Source: a virus
Direction: 5' to 3' (one strand)
Virus record (IMG/VR): IMGVR_UViG_3300045012_000053
Location: 1-64,000 of that record
DNA length: 64,000 nt
The notes beneath the pieces are model-generated. The model saw only the letters and a program-made list of their open reading frames with translations. It was not told where the DNA came from and did no database searches. Both the position numbers and the translations under genes were made by a program. Of the stretch, positions 11,393-17,095 are shown one piece after another; position 1 is the first letter of the stretch; every line of letters starts with the position of its first letter.

Positions 11393-11961
11393 TATTTTAT
11401 CCTTTGTAGATTGTAAAGTTGTCTAAATCGAGTGAGAAATGCTTGTTTTGCATATCCGGGTGCCCACTCGTGAATCGTGATATCTGCTTCTGTTTCATCC
11501 GTGCCCCACTTTTTTGATTCGTACTGCGTGGCCTCGGTGACATTCATTAGCTGCGCCTTCTCCGCATACAGCATTTGAACGTCGTACTTCTTTACTTCCT
11601 CGGACATCGGGTAAGGCAGTCCAAACTTCTTGAAAATCGCCTGCTCTACCTTCTCCTCGATTTGAAGATACGCAGGCCCGGCTGCTGTGAAGTGTTTCAG
11701 CGGGCGGTTCATATCTCCCAAATAGGCTTCGCTCGCGTCGTGCATCAAACACTCGAACGCGATCTCCTGCGGGCAGATAATGCTGGCGTAAACGCTGTGC
11801 TGGGCCACGCTGTAATGAAATCGTGTGTGCCCGGTCCAGCGGCACAGCTGCGACAACGAATGAGCGATGTCTTCCTCGCACACCATCTCTGGCTGGGGAT
11901 TCAGGTGGTAAAACTTCTTCCCCGTGTACGTGATAATCCACGCCTTTTGTTCGTCTGTCAT
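11392..11961 (-). CDS. HD-domain phosphohydrolase, 5'-deoxynucleotidase-like
   Basis: 189 residues with HD-domain metal ligands: HYSVAQHSV supplies the first His, LMHDASEAYLGDMNRPLK the HD pair, and a later Asp lies in KKYDVQM. This is the YfbR-like pattern of enzymes that dephosphorylate deoxynucleoside monophosphates. Next to a nucleotide kinase and a dCMP deaminase it fits a phage nucleotide-pool module. It overlaps the kinase gene by four bases. Confidence 0.82.
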   Translation of the reverse strand: MTDEQKAWIITYTGKKFYHLNPQPEMVCEEDIAHSLSQLCRWTGHTRFHYSVAQHSVYASIICPQEIAFECLMHDASEAYLGDMNRPLKHFTAAGPAYLQIEEKVEQAIFKKFGLPYPMSEEVKKYDVQMLYAEKAQLMNVTEATQYESKKWGTDETEADITIHEWAPGYAKQAFLTRFRQLYNLQRIK

Positions 11962-12644
11962 TTGTGCCCCTTGAGCGCGCGTAGGTAGTGCACGAGCGTC
12001 ACAGCGTACTCCTCCAACAAAGGCAGATCGCCCGTCTTCACGGTGATTTGATAGTCGACGTTGTATCCGTCGAGTTGTGTCTCCGAGGTATGCTTCGGGT
12101 CGCGGCTATCATCAACGTACGGTGTGCCGTCTGAGTTCAAGCGGCTCACGCGCACGGTATATCCGCCCACGCTTTTCACGGCCTGCGCCTCGTTGATGAA
12201 GCGCATATCCGTTGCCATCACAATGCTGGCCTTTGGATTGATTCCATCCTTCCACTGCTTGACCCAATAGTCCTGATCTTGTGCGCGACGGTACTCGGTG
12301 CCCCACCACTGTAGCAGCTTCGCGTGCTTGCCGTACGGCGCGCGTGCGCTCACTTCCGCATTCGGGTCCGGCTGCACCCACGCAGGAATAGCAATCGTGT
12401 TTTCAATCTTCAAATCTAAAGCACCACGAAGCCACCAATCGCCATACGGCGACTTCAAAAAATCGTTGACTTCTTTATACAGTGCGTCCGCGAACGCGTG
12501 GCGTTGAATAATGACAGGCTTGTGATTTCTCAACCCATGCTTTGCCGCAGCCGCATCGATCTTCGCGAAATAGCTGTCGATGGCTGTGGCGAAGCTGTCC
12601 TTGCCGTGGCGAGCGCGATTCCCGAGGCCCAAGATTAGTGTCAT
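11958..12644 (-). CDS. Deoxynucleoside monophosphate kinase-like protein
   Basis: 228 residues. A P-loop-like GLGNRARHGKDSFA at residues 6-19 resembles the G-x-x-x-x-GKD/S loop of T4 gp1-type dNMP kinases. A later MATDMRFINEAQAVK segment matches the LID-proximal VxDxRxxNE pattern seen in that family. It would phosphorylate dNMPs to dNDPs. Its neighbours, an HD nucleotidase and a dCMP deaminase, support the assignment. Confidence 0.75.
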   Translation of the reverse strand: MTLILGLGNRARHGKDSFATAIDSYFAKIDAAAAKHGLRNHKPVIIQRHAFADALYKEVNDFLKSPYGDWWLRGALDLKIENTIAIPAWVQPDPNAEVSARAPYGKHAKLLQWWGTEYRRAQDQDYWVKQWKDGINPKASIVMATDMRFINEAQAVKSVGGYTVRVSRLNSDGTPYVDDSRDPKHTSETQLDGYNVDYQITVKTGDLPLLEEYAVTLVHYLRALKGHK

Positions 12645-13084
12645 AAATCGCTCTCGAATGGCGTTAGCTTCACGCCGCCTGCTATCAGAATCTTCTTGCT
12701 CGTTTCAAATCCATAACGCGGGTCAGCCCAGCGCTCCGGTTTCACGGTGTACACCAGCTCCGAAATACCGACCGCGACAATCGCTCTCGCGCAGTCTGCG
12801 CAAGGAAACCAGTTGAGGAACATGACGCAACCTTGCAGGTCATGACCGTTCTTCCCGTAAATAGCGTTACGCTCTGCGTGTTCAATCCAGTTGTATTTTT
12901 CGGGGCGGCTAAGACGCTCCGGCGTTTTATCTATATCATAAGGCAAGCGATTCGAGTCGGTCGTGAACGGGTTATATGCACCCGGCTCATAGATAGCGCA
13001 CCCGGTTTGAGTGTCCGGGTCATCCGACTCTCGGGACGCGTGTATCGCCATATTCATGCCGCGAACGTAGAAGTCGTTTATCAT
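12641..13084 (-). CDS. dCMP deaminase-like zinc enzyme
   Basis: 147 residues with the cytidine/dCMP deaminase zinc site: HAERNAI (His ligand and catalytic Glu) and PCADCA (two Cys ligands). It converts dCMP to dUMP, feeding thymidylate synthesis. The frame is open further upstream, but the ATG at 13084 has AGGAG six bases before it and overlaps the stop of the preceding gene, so I start there. Confidence 0.87.
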   Translation of the reverse strand: MINDFYVRGMNMAIHASRESDDPDTQTGCAIYEPGAYNPFTTDSNRLPYDIDKTPERLSRPEKYNWIEHAERNAIYGKNGHDLQGCVMFLNWFPCADCARAIVAVGISELVYTVKPERWADPRYGFETSKKILIAGGVKLTPFESDL

Positions 13085-13320
13085 GCTGCTCTCCTGATCG
13101 CATCTTTGATATCGTTCCTGTCGCCGCAGATCGGACACGGTACAGCCTTGTGCTCCGGATTCAAATCAACCACCAGCCAGCCGTTACCGCAACGGCCACA
13201 TACCAGCTTGCCGTTGAAGTAGACGACCTTCTTCACGCCTTCCCGCTTCCTGCGGTCGGTGCGCTTCACGCCGTCGACTGCGCCGGGTTCGCGGCCTTTA
13301 TTAGTGCGATGATCTGTCAT
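13081..13320 (-). CDS. Zinc-ribbon protein
   Basis: 79 residues. A basic N-terminal half leads to a zinc ribbon, CGRCGNGW and CPICGDR about 20 residues apart. It may bind nucleic acid; the partner is unknown. It overlaps the dCMP deaminase start by four bases. Confidence 0.7.
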   Translation of the reverse strand: MTDHRTNKGREPGAVDGVKRTDRRKREGVKKVVYFNGKLVCGRCGNGWLVVDLNPEHKAVPCPICGDRNDIKDAIRRAA

Positions 13321-14318
13321 TGACGCGCCCTCGCTTCGTATCGTTCTAACAAAGAGATTAGCTTATCCAATTCCGCTCTGTCGCTCTTGATTTGTTCCAA
13401 AAACGACACAGGAGCAACTTCTTTTGCTCTTCTTTTTCTTCCGGGACACTCTTCGTGCGCTTCGTGCAACTCTTTTCTTTCACAACGCAGCATTATTTTC
13501 TTCTCCTCTAAGGTCTCTTTCTGCAAAATAGGCGAGAGCAAGAAATGCTGCTGCCGCCACTGCTGGAACTTGTCCGTTTCCAGTGGCTTTATATCTGTCC
13601 ATCCAGCGGGCCACCCCATCAACCACTCTTGGTCTATTGGGTTCGGACGAGGACTTTCGTTTCCCTCGTAAGGCCACAACTTTGCTCCCTCGTTCTGCTT
13701 CCGAGAATCCTTTGCTGTAGAGTCCGTGCCTTTCGTTGACAGATTCCCTTGTCCAACCCTCGGGTTCTTTTGACCAAATGCGCGGATATAATTCTTGCAC
13801 CCCTCGTGCTTGTACATTGAAGGAGCTAAGTAATTGGCGGCTGTCGTCGGCGTATGCAAGAAGCCAATATCTGGAACGGTTATGATCTGCACCCAAGTCT
13901 GCCGCCGAAAGGGCGAGTGTTTTAGTTCTATATCCGCCTTTACGGCAGTCGGCAGCTGCTTTTGAAATGGCTTTAATTGATACGTTTTCAGCGAAAACCA
14001 ATCGGGGTTTAACTTCGTCCACGATGCGAAACATCTCAGGCCAAAGATCGGCTGCTGTCGACCTTCCGTGTGTTGCTGTGGAGAAGGCTTGGCAAGGAAA
14101 GCCTCCCGAAACCAAGTTAACAGAGCCTCTCCAAGGCTCTCCTTTAAAGGAGCGAATGTCATCCCAGATAGGGAACGGGTGGAAAAATCCATCATTCTGT
14201 CTTTGAATAAGAATGCTTGTGGCGTAGGGTTCAATTTCAACAGCGCAGACAGTTCTCCATCCGAGGAGTTCGCTCGCGAGTATTCCTCCACCAGCGCCCG
14301 CGAAAAGTGCCAACTCAT
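13317..14318 (-). CDS. Overprinted protein (MSWHF family) in another frame of the methyltransferase gene
   Basis: This 333-residue frame lies on the same strand as the cytosine methyltransferase and covers almost all of it. Its ATG at 14318 has its own AAGGAG about ten bases upstream. The sequence is not random. It begins MSWHFSRALVEEY, and from memory I recall phage proteins that start this way and share the later LMGWPAGWTD-IKPLE-DKF motif; I cannot check that here. The frame continues 163 bases past the methyltransferase stop, with a charged coiled-coil tail (EQIKSDRAELDKLISLLE). A second good start lies at 13493 (AGGAG nine bases before ATG), so the last 58 residues might also be made alone. 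The function is unknown. Confidence 0.55.
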   Translation of the reverse strand: MSWHFSRALVEEYSRANSSDGELSALLKLNPTPQAFLFKDRMMDFSTRSLSGMTFAPLKESLGEALLTWFREAFLAKPSPQQHTEGRQQPIFGLRCFASWTKLNPDWFSLKTYQLKPFQKQLPTAVKADIELKHSPFRRQTWVQIITVPDIGFLHTPTTAANYLAPSMYKHEGCKNYIRAFGQKNPRVGQGNLSTKGTDSTAKDSRKQNEGAKLWPYEGNESPRPNPIDQEWLMGWPAGWTDIKPLETDKFQQWRQQHFLLSPILQKETLEEKKIMLRCERKELHEAHEECPGRKRRAKEVAPVSFLEQIKSDRAELDKLISLLERYEARARQ

Positions 14319-14358
14319 TTATTTTATTCTCCTTATCAGCGTTCTCCCTTCTCCCCAT
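13480..14358 (-). CDS. DNA cytosine-5 methyltransferase
   Basis: 292 residues with the C5-methyltransferase motifs in order: FAGAGGG (motif I, residues 19-25), the catalytic PCQ in GGFPCQAFS (about 85-93), ENV at 124-126, a motif VIII-like DHNRSRYWLLA, and motif IX/X VDGVARWMDRYKATGNGQVPAVAAAA near the end. It transfers methyl from SAM to cytosine and may shield phage DNA from host restriction. The frame is open upstream, but the ATG at 14358 has GAGGAG eight bases before it, just after the previous stop. No cognate nuclease is recognisable next to it. Confidence 0.9.
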   Translation of the reverse strand: MGRRENADKENKINELALFAGAGGGILASELLGWRTVCAVEIEPYATSILIQRQNDGFFHPFPIWDDIRSFKGEPWRGSVNLVSGGFPCQAFSTATHGRSTAADLWPEMFRIVDEVKPRLVFAENVSIKAISKAAADCRKGGYRTKTLALSAADLGADHNRSRYWLLAYADDSRQLLSSFNVQARGVQELYPRIWSKEPEGWTRESVNERHGLYSKGFSEAERGSKVVALRGKRKSSSEPNRPRVVDGVARWMDRYKATGNGQVPAVAAAAFLALAYFAERDLRGEENNAAL

Positions 14359-14368
14359 TATTTTCTCC

Positions 14369-14722
14369 TCACTGGGATAGGCGATATTCAAAAATTCCAT
14401 CTGCTCTCTTACGAGTATCAATTACGTATGAACCCATCTCTGGCTTCCGTAGCGTTCTAATACACGCCGACAACCCCGTAAGACTTTTATAGCCAGACAA
14501 TCGTGATATCTCGTCCAACGAAGACCAGCCACTTGCAGCCATTGCAGCCAGAACGCTATCTACCTTGCGACTTACAGCGGTGCGATGGTTGACGACGCAA
14601 TCACCCAAACTCTCTGATGTGATGTGAAATGTTTTGTAGTCTGGGTCTCCTACATATCGCACTTCTGATAGCGAACCGCTCGTGCTCACTACTTCTACTT
14701 GCTTGCCTTTATAGTATGCCAT
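14369..14722 (-). CDS. Small protein with winged-helix-like C-terminus
   Basis: 117 residues. The C-terminal 65 (SGWSSLDEISRLSGYKSLTG through DTRKRADGIFEYRLS) follow a winged helix-turn-helix pattern ending in a beta hairpin. The N-terminal half is beta-rich with no motif I know. Standing first in the transcript before the methyltransferase, it may regulate it or act as a DNA-recognition part. Confidence 0.6.
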   Translation of the reverse strand: MAYYKGKQVEVVSTSGSLSEVRYVGDPDYKTFHITSESLGDCVVNHRTAVSRKVDSVLAAMAASGWSSLDEISRLSGYKSLTGLSACIRTLRKPEMGSYVIDTRKRADGIFEYRLSQ

Positions 14723-15478: not shown

Positions 15479-17095
15479 CTAGGCTCTCCATTCTCCGTTG
15501 TAAATCGTGACAATAGTGCGCTTCCCGTTCGAATACGTCAACGTATGACTGTGAGTTGCTGCGCTAGGCCCCAAATTGTAGTCCCAGCGGGGCTTTGCAC
15601 TCGTGCCTGCTACGTACAAACCACCAAAGATACCAGTGGCGTGGGTGTGGGCTGTGTTTGCCTTCCGAGCCATCTTGCTCAGATTGTCAGGGGTTCCGAA
15701 GCGTCCTGCGGGACCTAGGTGTCCGTGCATGCCTGTCTCGATGCGCTTGCCGCAAATCAGGTACGACTCATCAGCAATAAGAAACTTCGCGCCTGTCAAG
15801 CCAAACTTTCGCATCACGTGCTCGATGACACTGATGTCACGGGGCATCTTGCCGGAGCGAATCTGGGCGTACATCCAAGATTGCAATTCTAGAAACAGTT
15901 CTGCGTTCGCTGGGTCTACCCGATAATCGAAGTCTCGAAGCCACTTCTTAACCCAAGCATCATCGTGGTTTGAATCAACGACAATCATCTTAGAAAAAGG
16001 GCGCTCATAAGTCTTAATAAGAGCTACCGTGTCTTCTACTTCCTTGCTGAACTTGCTATAACCGCGCAGGTACGTGTGGAACTTAGCGTGGTTGTCCTTG
16101 TGTTTACGATTATGCGGATTAATACTGGCACCTTCCATAATGTCGTGAAGAAATTGATATTTCGGGTTCAACGTGTCCAGCATATCATGAGACGCCTTAA
16201 CAACGACGGGGTCTGCGAACGTGCCGTGCAGGTCGCCGAAGGTGAGCGCTTCCACTCGCACGCCTTGAACAACTTTACCTTTGGTGACAAGCACGTCCAA
16301 GTCCTGCATCGTGTTGGTGCCTTCATCCTGATTCAGCTGTCGCACCCACCAGTTGCCGTCCGAGTTAATCTCGACGAGTAGCCCGCCGTAGATGTGGTGA
16401 AATTCAGCGATTACTCCCTCACGCTTCTGAATGTAGTTGCGCTGAGTAACCGTGCCCGTGGTGTAGTTCAGCTTCACGCCCTCGCCCTGCATCGTTGCAA
16501 TCGAACGCATCGCTAGCTTGGCGTGGGGGAAGATTGCGCTCTTGCGTCCGGTGTAGGATTCCAGCCCGGCCAGCGGGTTGACCATCGTGGGCAGGATGTT
16601 CATCTCTCCGCACCACACGAGTCCCTTCCCGAGTTCGATACGCCGATCTTGGATATAATCGTAGCCTGCAATCTTCGGGTCGTACCAGAGTTCCTTCTGT
16701 TCGATCTTGTCCTTGCCGCGCTTCACGCTCAACTTTCCGTATGCGTTCTGGTTGTACGTGTAAGTGCCAACGATAATCTGAGCGTTGTAGTAAGCTGCAA
16801 GCGCTTTCAAATTATTCCACGCATCGTCGTTGACCAGCGTGTTATTCTGCGCGGATGTTAAGATATAACGAGCCACCTTCCCCTTCTCGGGCAGCGGATA
16901 CTTCTCAGCCTGCGTGCCAGCGCGTGTGCCCGCAGCAATCGGCTTCTCTGCTACGCCAGTGGGAACGAGAATGCGCCGCACCGATGAGCGTGAGATGCCT
17001 AGCTCTTTCGCGGTAGCGCGGATGTTGCCGCTGTGCTTCTCGTAAATCTTGGCTACTTCGTCTTGAGACTTGCGCTTGCTCTTGGGTACGTTCAT
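15479..17095 (-). CDS. T5 A1-like protein: HTH plus metallophosphoesterase
   Basis: 538 residues. Residues 10-45 form a helix-turn-helix (IRATAKELGISRSSVRRIL). A basic, beta-rich middle part follows, then a calcineurin-like metallophosphoesterase domain with TFGDLHGTF, VVDSNHDDAW, a GMHGHLGPAG element and NTAHTHATGIFGG. This combination resembles the A1 protein of phage T5, which is needed for host DNA degradation and second-step transfer. I infer a nuclease or nuclease regulator acting early in infection. It precedes the membrane coiled-coil and HNH genes in reading order. Confidence 0.72.
   Translation of the reverse strand: MNVPKSKRKSQDEVAKIYEKHSGNIRATAKELGISRSSVRRILVPTGVAEKPIAAGTRAGTQAEKYPLPEKGKVARYILTSAQNNTLVNDDAWNNLKALAAYYNAQIIVGTYTYNQNAYGKLSVKRGKDKIEQKELWYDPKIAGYDYIQDRRIELGKGLVWCGEMNILPTMVNPLAGLESYTGRKSAIFPHAKLAMRSIATMQGEGVKLNYTTGTVTQRNYIQKREGVIAEFHHIYGGLLVEINSDGNWWVRQLNQDEGTNTMQDLDVLVTKGKVVQGVRVEALTFGDLHGTFADPVVVKASHDMLDTLNPKYQFLHDIMEGASINPHNRKHKDNHAKFHTYLRGYSKFSKEVEDTVALIKTYERPFSKMIVVDSNHDDAWVKKWLRDFDYRVDPANAELFLELQSWMYAQIRSGKMPRDISVIEHVMRKFGLTGAKFLIADESYLICGKRIETGMHGHLGPAGRFGTPDNLSKMARKANTAHTHATGIFGGLYVAGTSAKPRWDYNLGPSAATHSHTLTYSNGKRTIVTIYNGEWRA

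Follow-up and report, generated by a model that had tools for sequence, protein, structure and literature searches.

What does a second open reading frame encode when it runs along almost the whole of a phage gene for a cytosine DNA methyltransferase, on the same strand? The question is raised by a locus in a 64,000-nt window (the whole stretch of DNA that was analyzed) that belongs to a 101,360-base virus record in IMG/VR. The likely answer is that the two frames specify a C5-cytosine DNA methyltransferase made of two subunits, with the genes for them, here called alpha and beta, superimposed on one strand. Translation of beta, formation of a heterodimer, and the activity, target site and role of the enzyme are all inferred.

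Organization of the Overlapping Frames

Alpha, the subunit with motifs I–VIII and X, lies on the minus strand at 13480–14358 (ATG at 14358; 292 aa). Beta is a 333-codon ORF in the +1 frame that starts with MSWHF and contains motif IX; it occupies 13317–14318 of the same strand (ATG at 14318, stop codon ending at 13317), such that the two frames have a dual-frame stretch of 839 nt (13480–14318, minus strand) in common. Both starts are preceded by Shine-Dalgarno-like segments on this strand: GAGGAG at 14365–14370, 6 nt upstream of the alpha ATG, and AAGGAG at 14329–14334, 10 nt upstream of the beta ATG and within the alpha coding sequence. The first-pass annotation, made without database searches, had described a same-strand overlap of about 840 bases between a methyltransferase and a 333-codon frame, each with its own Shine-Dalgarno site (GAGGAG and AAGGAG) and with starts 40 bases apart. 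These claims held, including the 40-nt distance between starts.

Its further claim, that the second frame runs on past the methyltransferase stop, held with one qualification. In the window, beta with its extension exceeds alpha in length (333 against 292 codons), and in most relatives beta terminates near the alpha stop, usually within ~50 nt. Because the last part of the frame has its own ATG (13493) and a ribosome-binding-like site (GAGGAG, 13503–13508, 9 nt upstream), it is possible that the final 58 codons (13317–13493, minus strand, overlapping the alpha stop) are a separate gene rather than the tail of beta; this 58-codon ORF had no PHROG match. Neighbors of the locus, at window positions 15479–17095 and 11958–13138, include a dCMP deaminase, a deoxynucleoside monophosphate kinase and a DNA transfer protein of phrog_1745 (E = 4e-153), the last of which suggests a T5-like phage.

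Division of the Methyltransferase Motifs between Alpha and Beta

Alpha matches PF00145 (E = 4.6e-22) over profile positions 5–177 of 324, which correspond to motifs I–VIII, and also matches phrog_363 (E = 1.4e-54). Motifs I, IV (PCQ), VI (EN) and VIII are present in order, and the catalytic motif IV, GGFPCQ (residues 85–90; 14089–14106, minus strand), is invariant in the family alignment. The alpha profile matches canonical enzymes (E = 4.4e-23) and the catalytic part of fused phage methyltransferases (E = 3.5e-33). Motif X (KATGNGQVPAVA, residues 257–268; 13555–13590, minus strand) also sits in the alpha frame (frame 0). Across the family, and unlike in monomeric enzymes, no convincing motif IX was found in the alpha frame, the four pattern hits there being judged spurious, but the +1 frame does carry it. 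The division of motifs between the two frames is shown by comparison.

In the window, the beta motif IX is RPNPIDQEWLMGWPAGWTD (residues 224–242; 13593–13649, minus strand), identified by hhalign, by alignment through fused enzymes and by conservation; it follows a variable region that begins at GFLHTPTTAANY (13650–13865, minus strand). Its consensus, LNPxWVEWLMGWPxGWT, also occurs in frame in fused phage methyltransferases, and hhalign matched beta to this LMG motif of the fused enzymes (Prob 95.1, E = 3e-8) and to the C-terminal halves of split enzymes (Prob 98.7, E = 2.8e-16). Aligned jointly with canonical enzymes, RLNPAFVEWMMGLP is placed over RRLTPRECARLMGF at motif IX and GNGVV over GNSVV at motif X. 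Because of these fused, split and canonical alignments, and because motif IX is found only in the +1 frame, beta probably carries the piece that alpha lacks, although production of the polypeptide has not been shown. This assignment of the second frame to the same methyltransferase was absent from the first-pass annotation. An AlphaFold model of a fused protein (pLDDT 80) has C5-methyltransferases as its best PDB matches, M.HhaI first.

Other searches with beta were less informative. The beta profile gave no direct match to distant canonical methyltransferases and nothing significant among PDB sequences, and Pfam and NCBIfam returned no match for beta frames. Beta alone was predicted poorly by AlphaFold (pLDDT 59.9, from an alignment that left out 8 rows from the phage collection), and this model was not used. 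The N-terminal half of beta was not found in fused or split enzymes. In PHROG, beta frames hit phrog_1008, which carries the label DNA methyltransferase, as well as small families without a known function; phrog_1008, phrog_26627 and phrog_35493 all match the beta frame, and phrog_1008 bears its label though the matched part is the motif IX side rather than the catalytic domain.

Both Frames Are Kept Open among Relatives

Relatives were gathered from IMG/VR and GTDB genomes with alpha proteins only, so that an open second frame was no criterion of selection, although the query alignment nonetheless took in phage loci first found via beta. Stops were counted against expectations from shuffling synonymous codons within each gene, with the final 25 codons left out. 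Among 140 distinct loci selected by their methyltransferase, the +1 frame contains 2 stops where the shuffles predict 541, and it is stop-free in 139 of them (2.4 expected); the +2 frame shows no such depletion (1803 stops against 1488 expected). The window gene alone has no +1 stop, against an expectation of 4.7 (P = 0.002, synonymous-codon shuffles), and as a control, only 2 of 216 neighboring ORFs of at least 200 codons have a stop-free +1 frame. Depletion extends to those parts of each frame that lie opposite the other's motifs: in 137 loci, the beta frame over motifs I–VIII has 0 stops (337 expected) and the alpha frame over the variable region and motif IX likewise 0 (291 expected).

The start of beta is conserved as well, MS[WYF] at an ATG opening the frame in 140/147 loci, and the nearest alpha start is exactly 4 nt upstream of the beta start in 127 of the 147. 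The same arrangement occurs in more than 100 related phage and bacterial genes, which by kinship are not independent samples and for which annotation usually records just one of the two frames. Comparison thus shows the long overlap and the conservation of both frames. Stops interrupt the +1 frame of Stenotrophomonas phage S72 at codons 25 and 35, beyond which it is open to a motif IX-like end; possibly a shorter beta is made there from an internal start.

Selection Changes Frame along the Overlap

The codon positions at which relatives differ vary along the locus. Over motifs I–VIII, pairwise differences peak at alpha third positions. From about codon 150 to 240 they peak at alpha first positions, the wobble position of beta, although coverage is low at codons 180–225. 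Over motif X, the peak returns to alpha third positions. Between motifs VIII and IX, where the beta variable region shows beta-like differences with low coverage in its middle, evolution seems to follow the beta frame, although either frame's version of this interval is present in fused enzymes. At motif IX itself, beta is conserved more than alpha in both samples and alpha first positions are the most variable; alpha four-fold sites differ at 0.229 there, compared with 0.53 in control genes. Selection on beta at motif IX is shown by this comparison.

Constraint is less uniform elsewhere. Alpha third positions are conserved above those of neighboring genes (0.239 versus 0.380 at 80–90% identity), but codons 60–120 show no excess synonymous constraint (0.551). 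For lack of extra constraint over these codons, it is likely that part of the N-terminal half of beta is merely kept open rather than conserved in sequence.

These results bear on the remaining claim of the first-pass annotation, that of a large, conserved dual-coding region, for which it had proposed checks and named what would refute it. Drift or stops in the second frame among relatives were looked for and neither was found, the two stops reported above aside; synonymous sites of the methyltransferase proved constrained where beta carries its motif; and the homology search of the second frame was empty in Pfam and NCBIfam, led to phrog_1008 in PHROG and gave the hhalign match to fused methyltransferases. 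The claim is supported by the absence of stops, the conserved start and the synonymous constraint at the beta motif, with protein production unproven.

Fused, Split and Nested Relatives

With beta from an Acinetobacter phage as query, a search of phages turned up split DNA methylase pairs from mycobacteriophages, as well as nested ORFs from Paenibacillus, Bacteroides and other phages. The +1 ORF of the split pair in phage Smooch contains EWMMGWPDGWVT, followed ~25 residues on by IIGNGVCPQQA. Split methyltransferases were seen in Mycobacterium phages Wile and Smooch and in Arthrobacter phage ArV1, each encoded as a catalytic half and, in another frame that partly overlaps it, a C-terminal half with motifs IX and X. 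A further scan yielded 30 phage ORFs of the fused type, in which one frame holds the catalytic domain together with LNPxFxEWMMGxPxGWVT and GNGVVPQQA. In a broader second sample of 80 phage methyltransferases, motif IX is in the +1 frame in 66 of the 67 scorable cases, and the beta start is mostly inside alpha.

A tree of the catalytic part, with a midpoint root and with states called by pattern, places 31 of the 35 sampled full-overlap loci in one clade (support 100/99). This clade also takes in two loci scored as split and one scored as fused, which could reflect contig truncation or errors of the pattern. The fused and split enzymes of phages group in another clade, which lies among nested ones; fusion in that clade may be secondary, as the tree suggests but does not prove.

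The interval between motifs VIII and IX in fused methyltransferases is occupied either by LPTPTASD-like repeats (loci L226, L228, L232 and L233) or by hydrophilic filler (L244, L252, L261 and L286). The filler resembles the other frame of the repeats, as if the segment could switch frame. The repeats were weighed as the recognition domain and are no more than a candidate for it, since either version is present in fused enzymes. In a different methyltransferase subfamily from bacterial genomes (L189, L209), the +1 frame is nearly stop-free and contains a motif IX-like LTIMGFAPDW or LNMMGFASDW.

Proposed Enzyme and Alternative Explanations

In the proposed enzyme, alpha would provide AdoMet binding, the catalytic cysteine, motifs I–VIII and the C-terminal motif X. 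Beta, initiated at its own start in the +1 frame, would supply motif IX and the variable region, most likely as part of target recognition, a role that is inferred. Together they would make up a single active enzyme for the methylation of phage DNA, and their adjacent starts could favor similar dosage and assembly. The presumed role, shielding phage DNA from host restriction, is inferred from the usual function of phage methyltransferases.

The least tenable alternative is that the second frame is a shadow ORF, an untranslated by-product of methyltransferase sequence and codon use. Some conservation of beta is indeed imposed by alpha motifs, as where MSWHF lies over NELALF, and codons 60–120 show no excess synonymous constraint. 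However, shuffles that preserve the alpha protein and its codon use produce 541 stops where 2 are seen, and at motif IX beta is conserved above alpha, with the most variable position being the first of alpha and hence the wobble position of beta. The shadow ORF was rejected on this stop depletion and codon-position pattern, and can be regarded as all but excluded. Were beta translated, it could still be an independent protein, such as a regulator or anti-restriction factor, overprinted on alpha by chance. In general, the product of an overprinted phage gene is often an unrelated protein (PMC8227390), and the absence of the beta N-terminal half from fused and split enzymes would fit such an origin. 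Against this stands the fact that beta holds the very motif that alpha lacks, and that the same segment lies within fused and split methyltransferases, which makes independence very improbable.

A monomer could also arise by double ribosomal frameshifting, with a +1 shift after motif VIII and a return before motif X, leaving the beta start unused. The selected frame does alternate from alpha to beta and back, as a double shift would produce, and fused single-frame relatives exist. Yet this scheme requires two shifts, leaves the conserved MS[WYF] start of beta unexplained, and gives a monomer no need for stop-free unused parts, in which 0 stops are found against 337 expected (beta) and 291 expected (alpha); it is therefore considered most unlikely. 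Since both frames are stop-free throughout and the beta start is conserved, two complete, independently initiated polypeptides are the favored and probable products, with production of beta still unproven.

Relationship to Known Split Methyltransferases

The two-polypeptide enzyme M.EcoHK31I (YGGCCR) has motifs I–VIII and X and its predicted TRD on the large subunit, which leaves the small subunit with motif IX alone (PMC3404938). The present locus resembles it in motif layout, a likeness drawn without sequence comparison, in that alpha has motifs I–VIII and X and motif IX is on a separate beta ORF. The genes for M.EcoHK31I also overlap in different frames. The present beta differs in overlapping alpha nearly from start to stop, usually beginning 4 nt downstream, and whereas the TRD is predicted in the large subunit of M.EcoHK31I, the variable region here seems, at low coverage, to evolve in the beta frame; no cognate restriction gene came to notice among the neighboring genes checked. 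The motif division is known from M.EcoHK31I, and what is new is the near-complete overlap.

M.AquI (CYCGRG), likewise made of two polypeptides, is split between motif VIII and the C-terminal motifs, with IX and X both on the small subunit (PMC3404938). Mycobacteriophage pairs such as Wile gp75/gp74 resemble this arrangement; the present locus keeps motif X on alpha and only motif IX on beta, and thus does not have the M.AquI division. In viral overprinting, a single stretch of DNA gives two products, read from the same strand in different frames (PMC8227390). Classical overprinting yields an unrelated new protein, whereas the second frame here would be part of the same enzyme.

Implications for Annotation and Phage Biology

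PHROG separates phrog_363, which contains alpha, from phrog_1008, which beta relatives match, as distinct DNA methyltransferase families; they are apparently the two frames of one locus type. Individual genomes differ in which frame is recorded. Pseudomonas phages phPA-G and Shamal have an annotation for beta alone, as a hypothetical protein, and none for the methyltransferase frame, which bears out the statement in the first-pass annotation that separately annotated MSWHF-type proteins exist. In Pseudomonas phage PS-1 only alpha is annotated, and in phage Diva both frames are, with beta noted as an internal gene. No description of such overlap as a widespread class in phage cytosine methyltransferases was found in the open-access literature searched, most subscription papers being outside its scope.

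A bolder reading, on which the evidence does not tip the balance either way, is that subunit genes are ordinarily superimposed in a large, old group of cytosine methyltransferases from phages and prophages. Parts of the enzyme would have changed frame as the group evolved (through full overlap, nesting, splitting and re-fusion), the DNA would be maintained as translatable in both frames, and databases would frequently list just half of each enzyme. If both products are made, gene callers that keep one frame, sometimes the non-catalytic one, would cause methyltransferases to be missed or cloned as inactive halves, and methylome or counter-restriction studies that used only alpha would return false negatives. 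The locus would then be a long, conserved same-strand overlap in tailed phages, unusual in that both frames serve one enzyme, and it offers a testable case of protein parts moving between reading frames.
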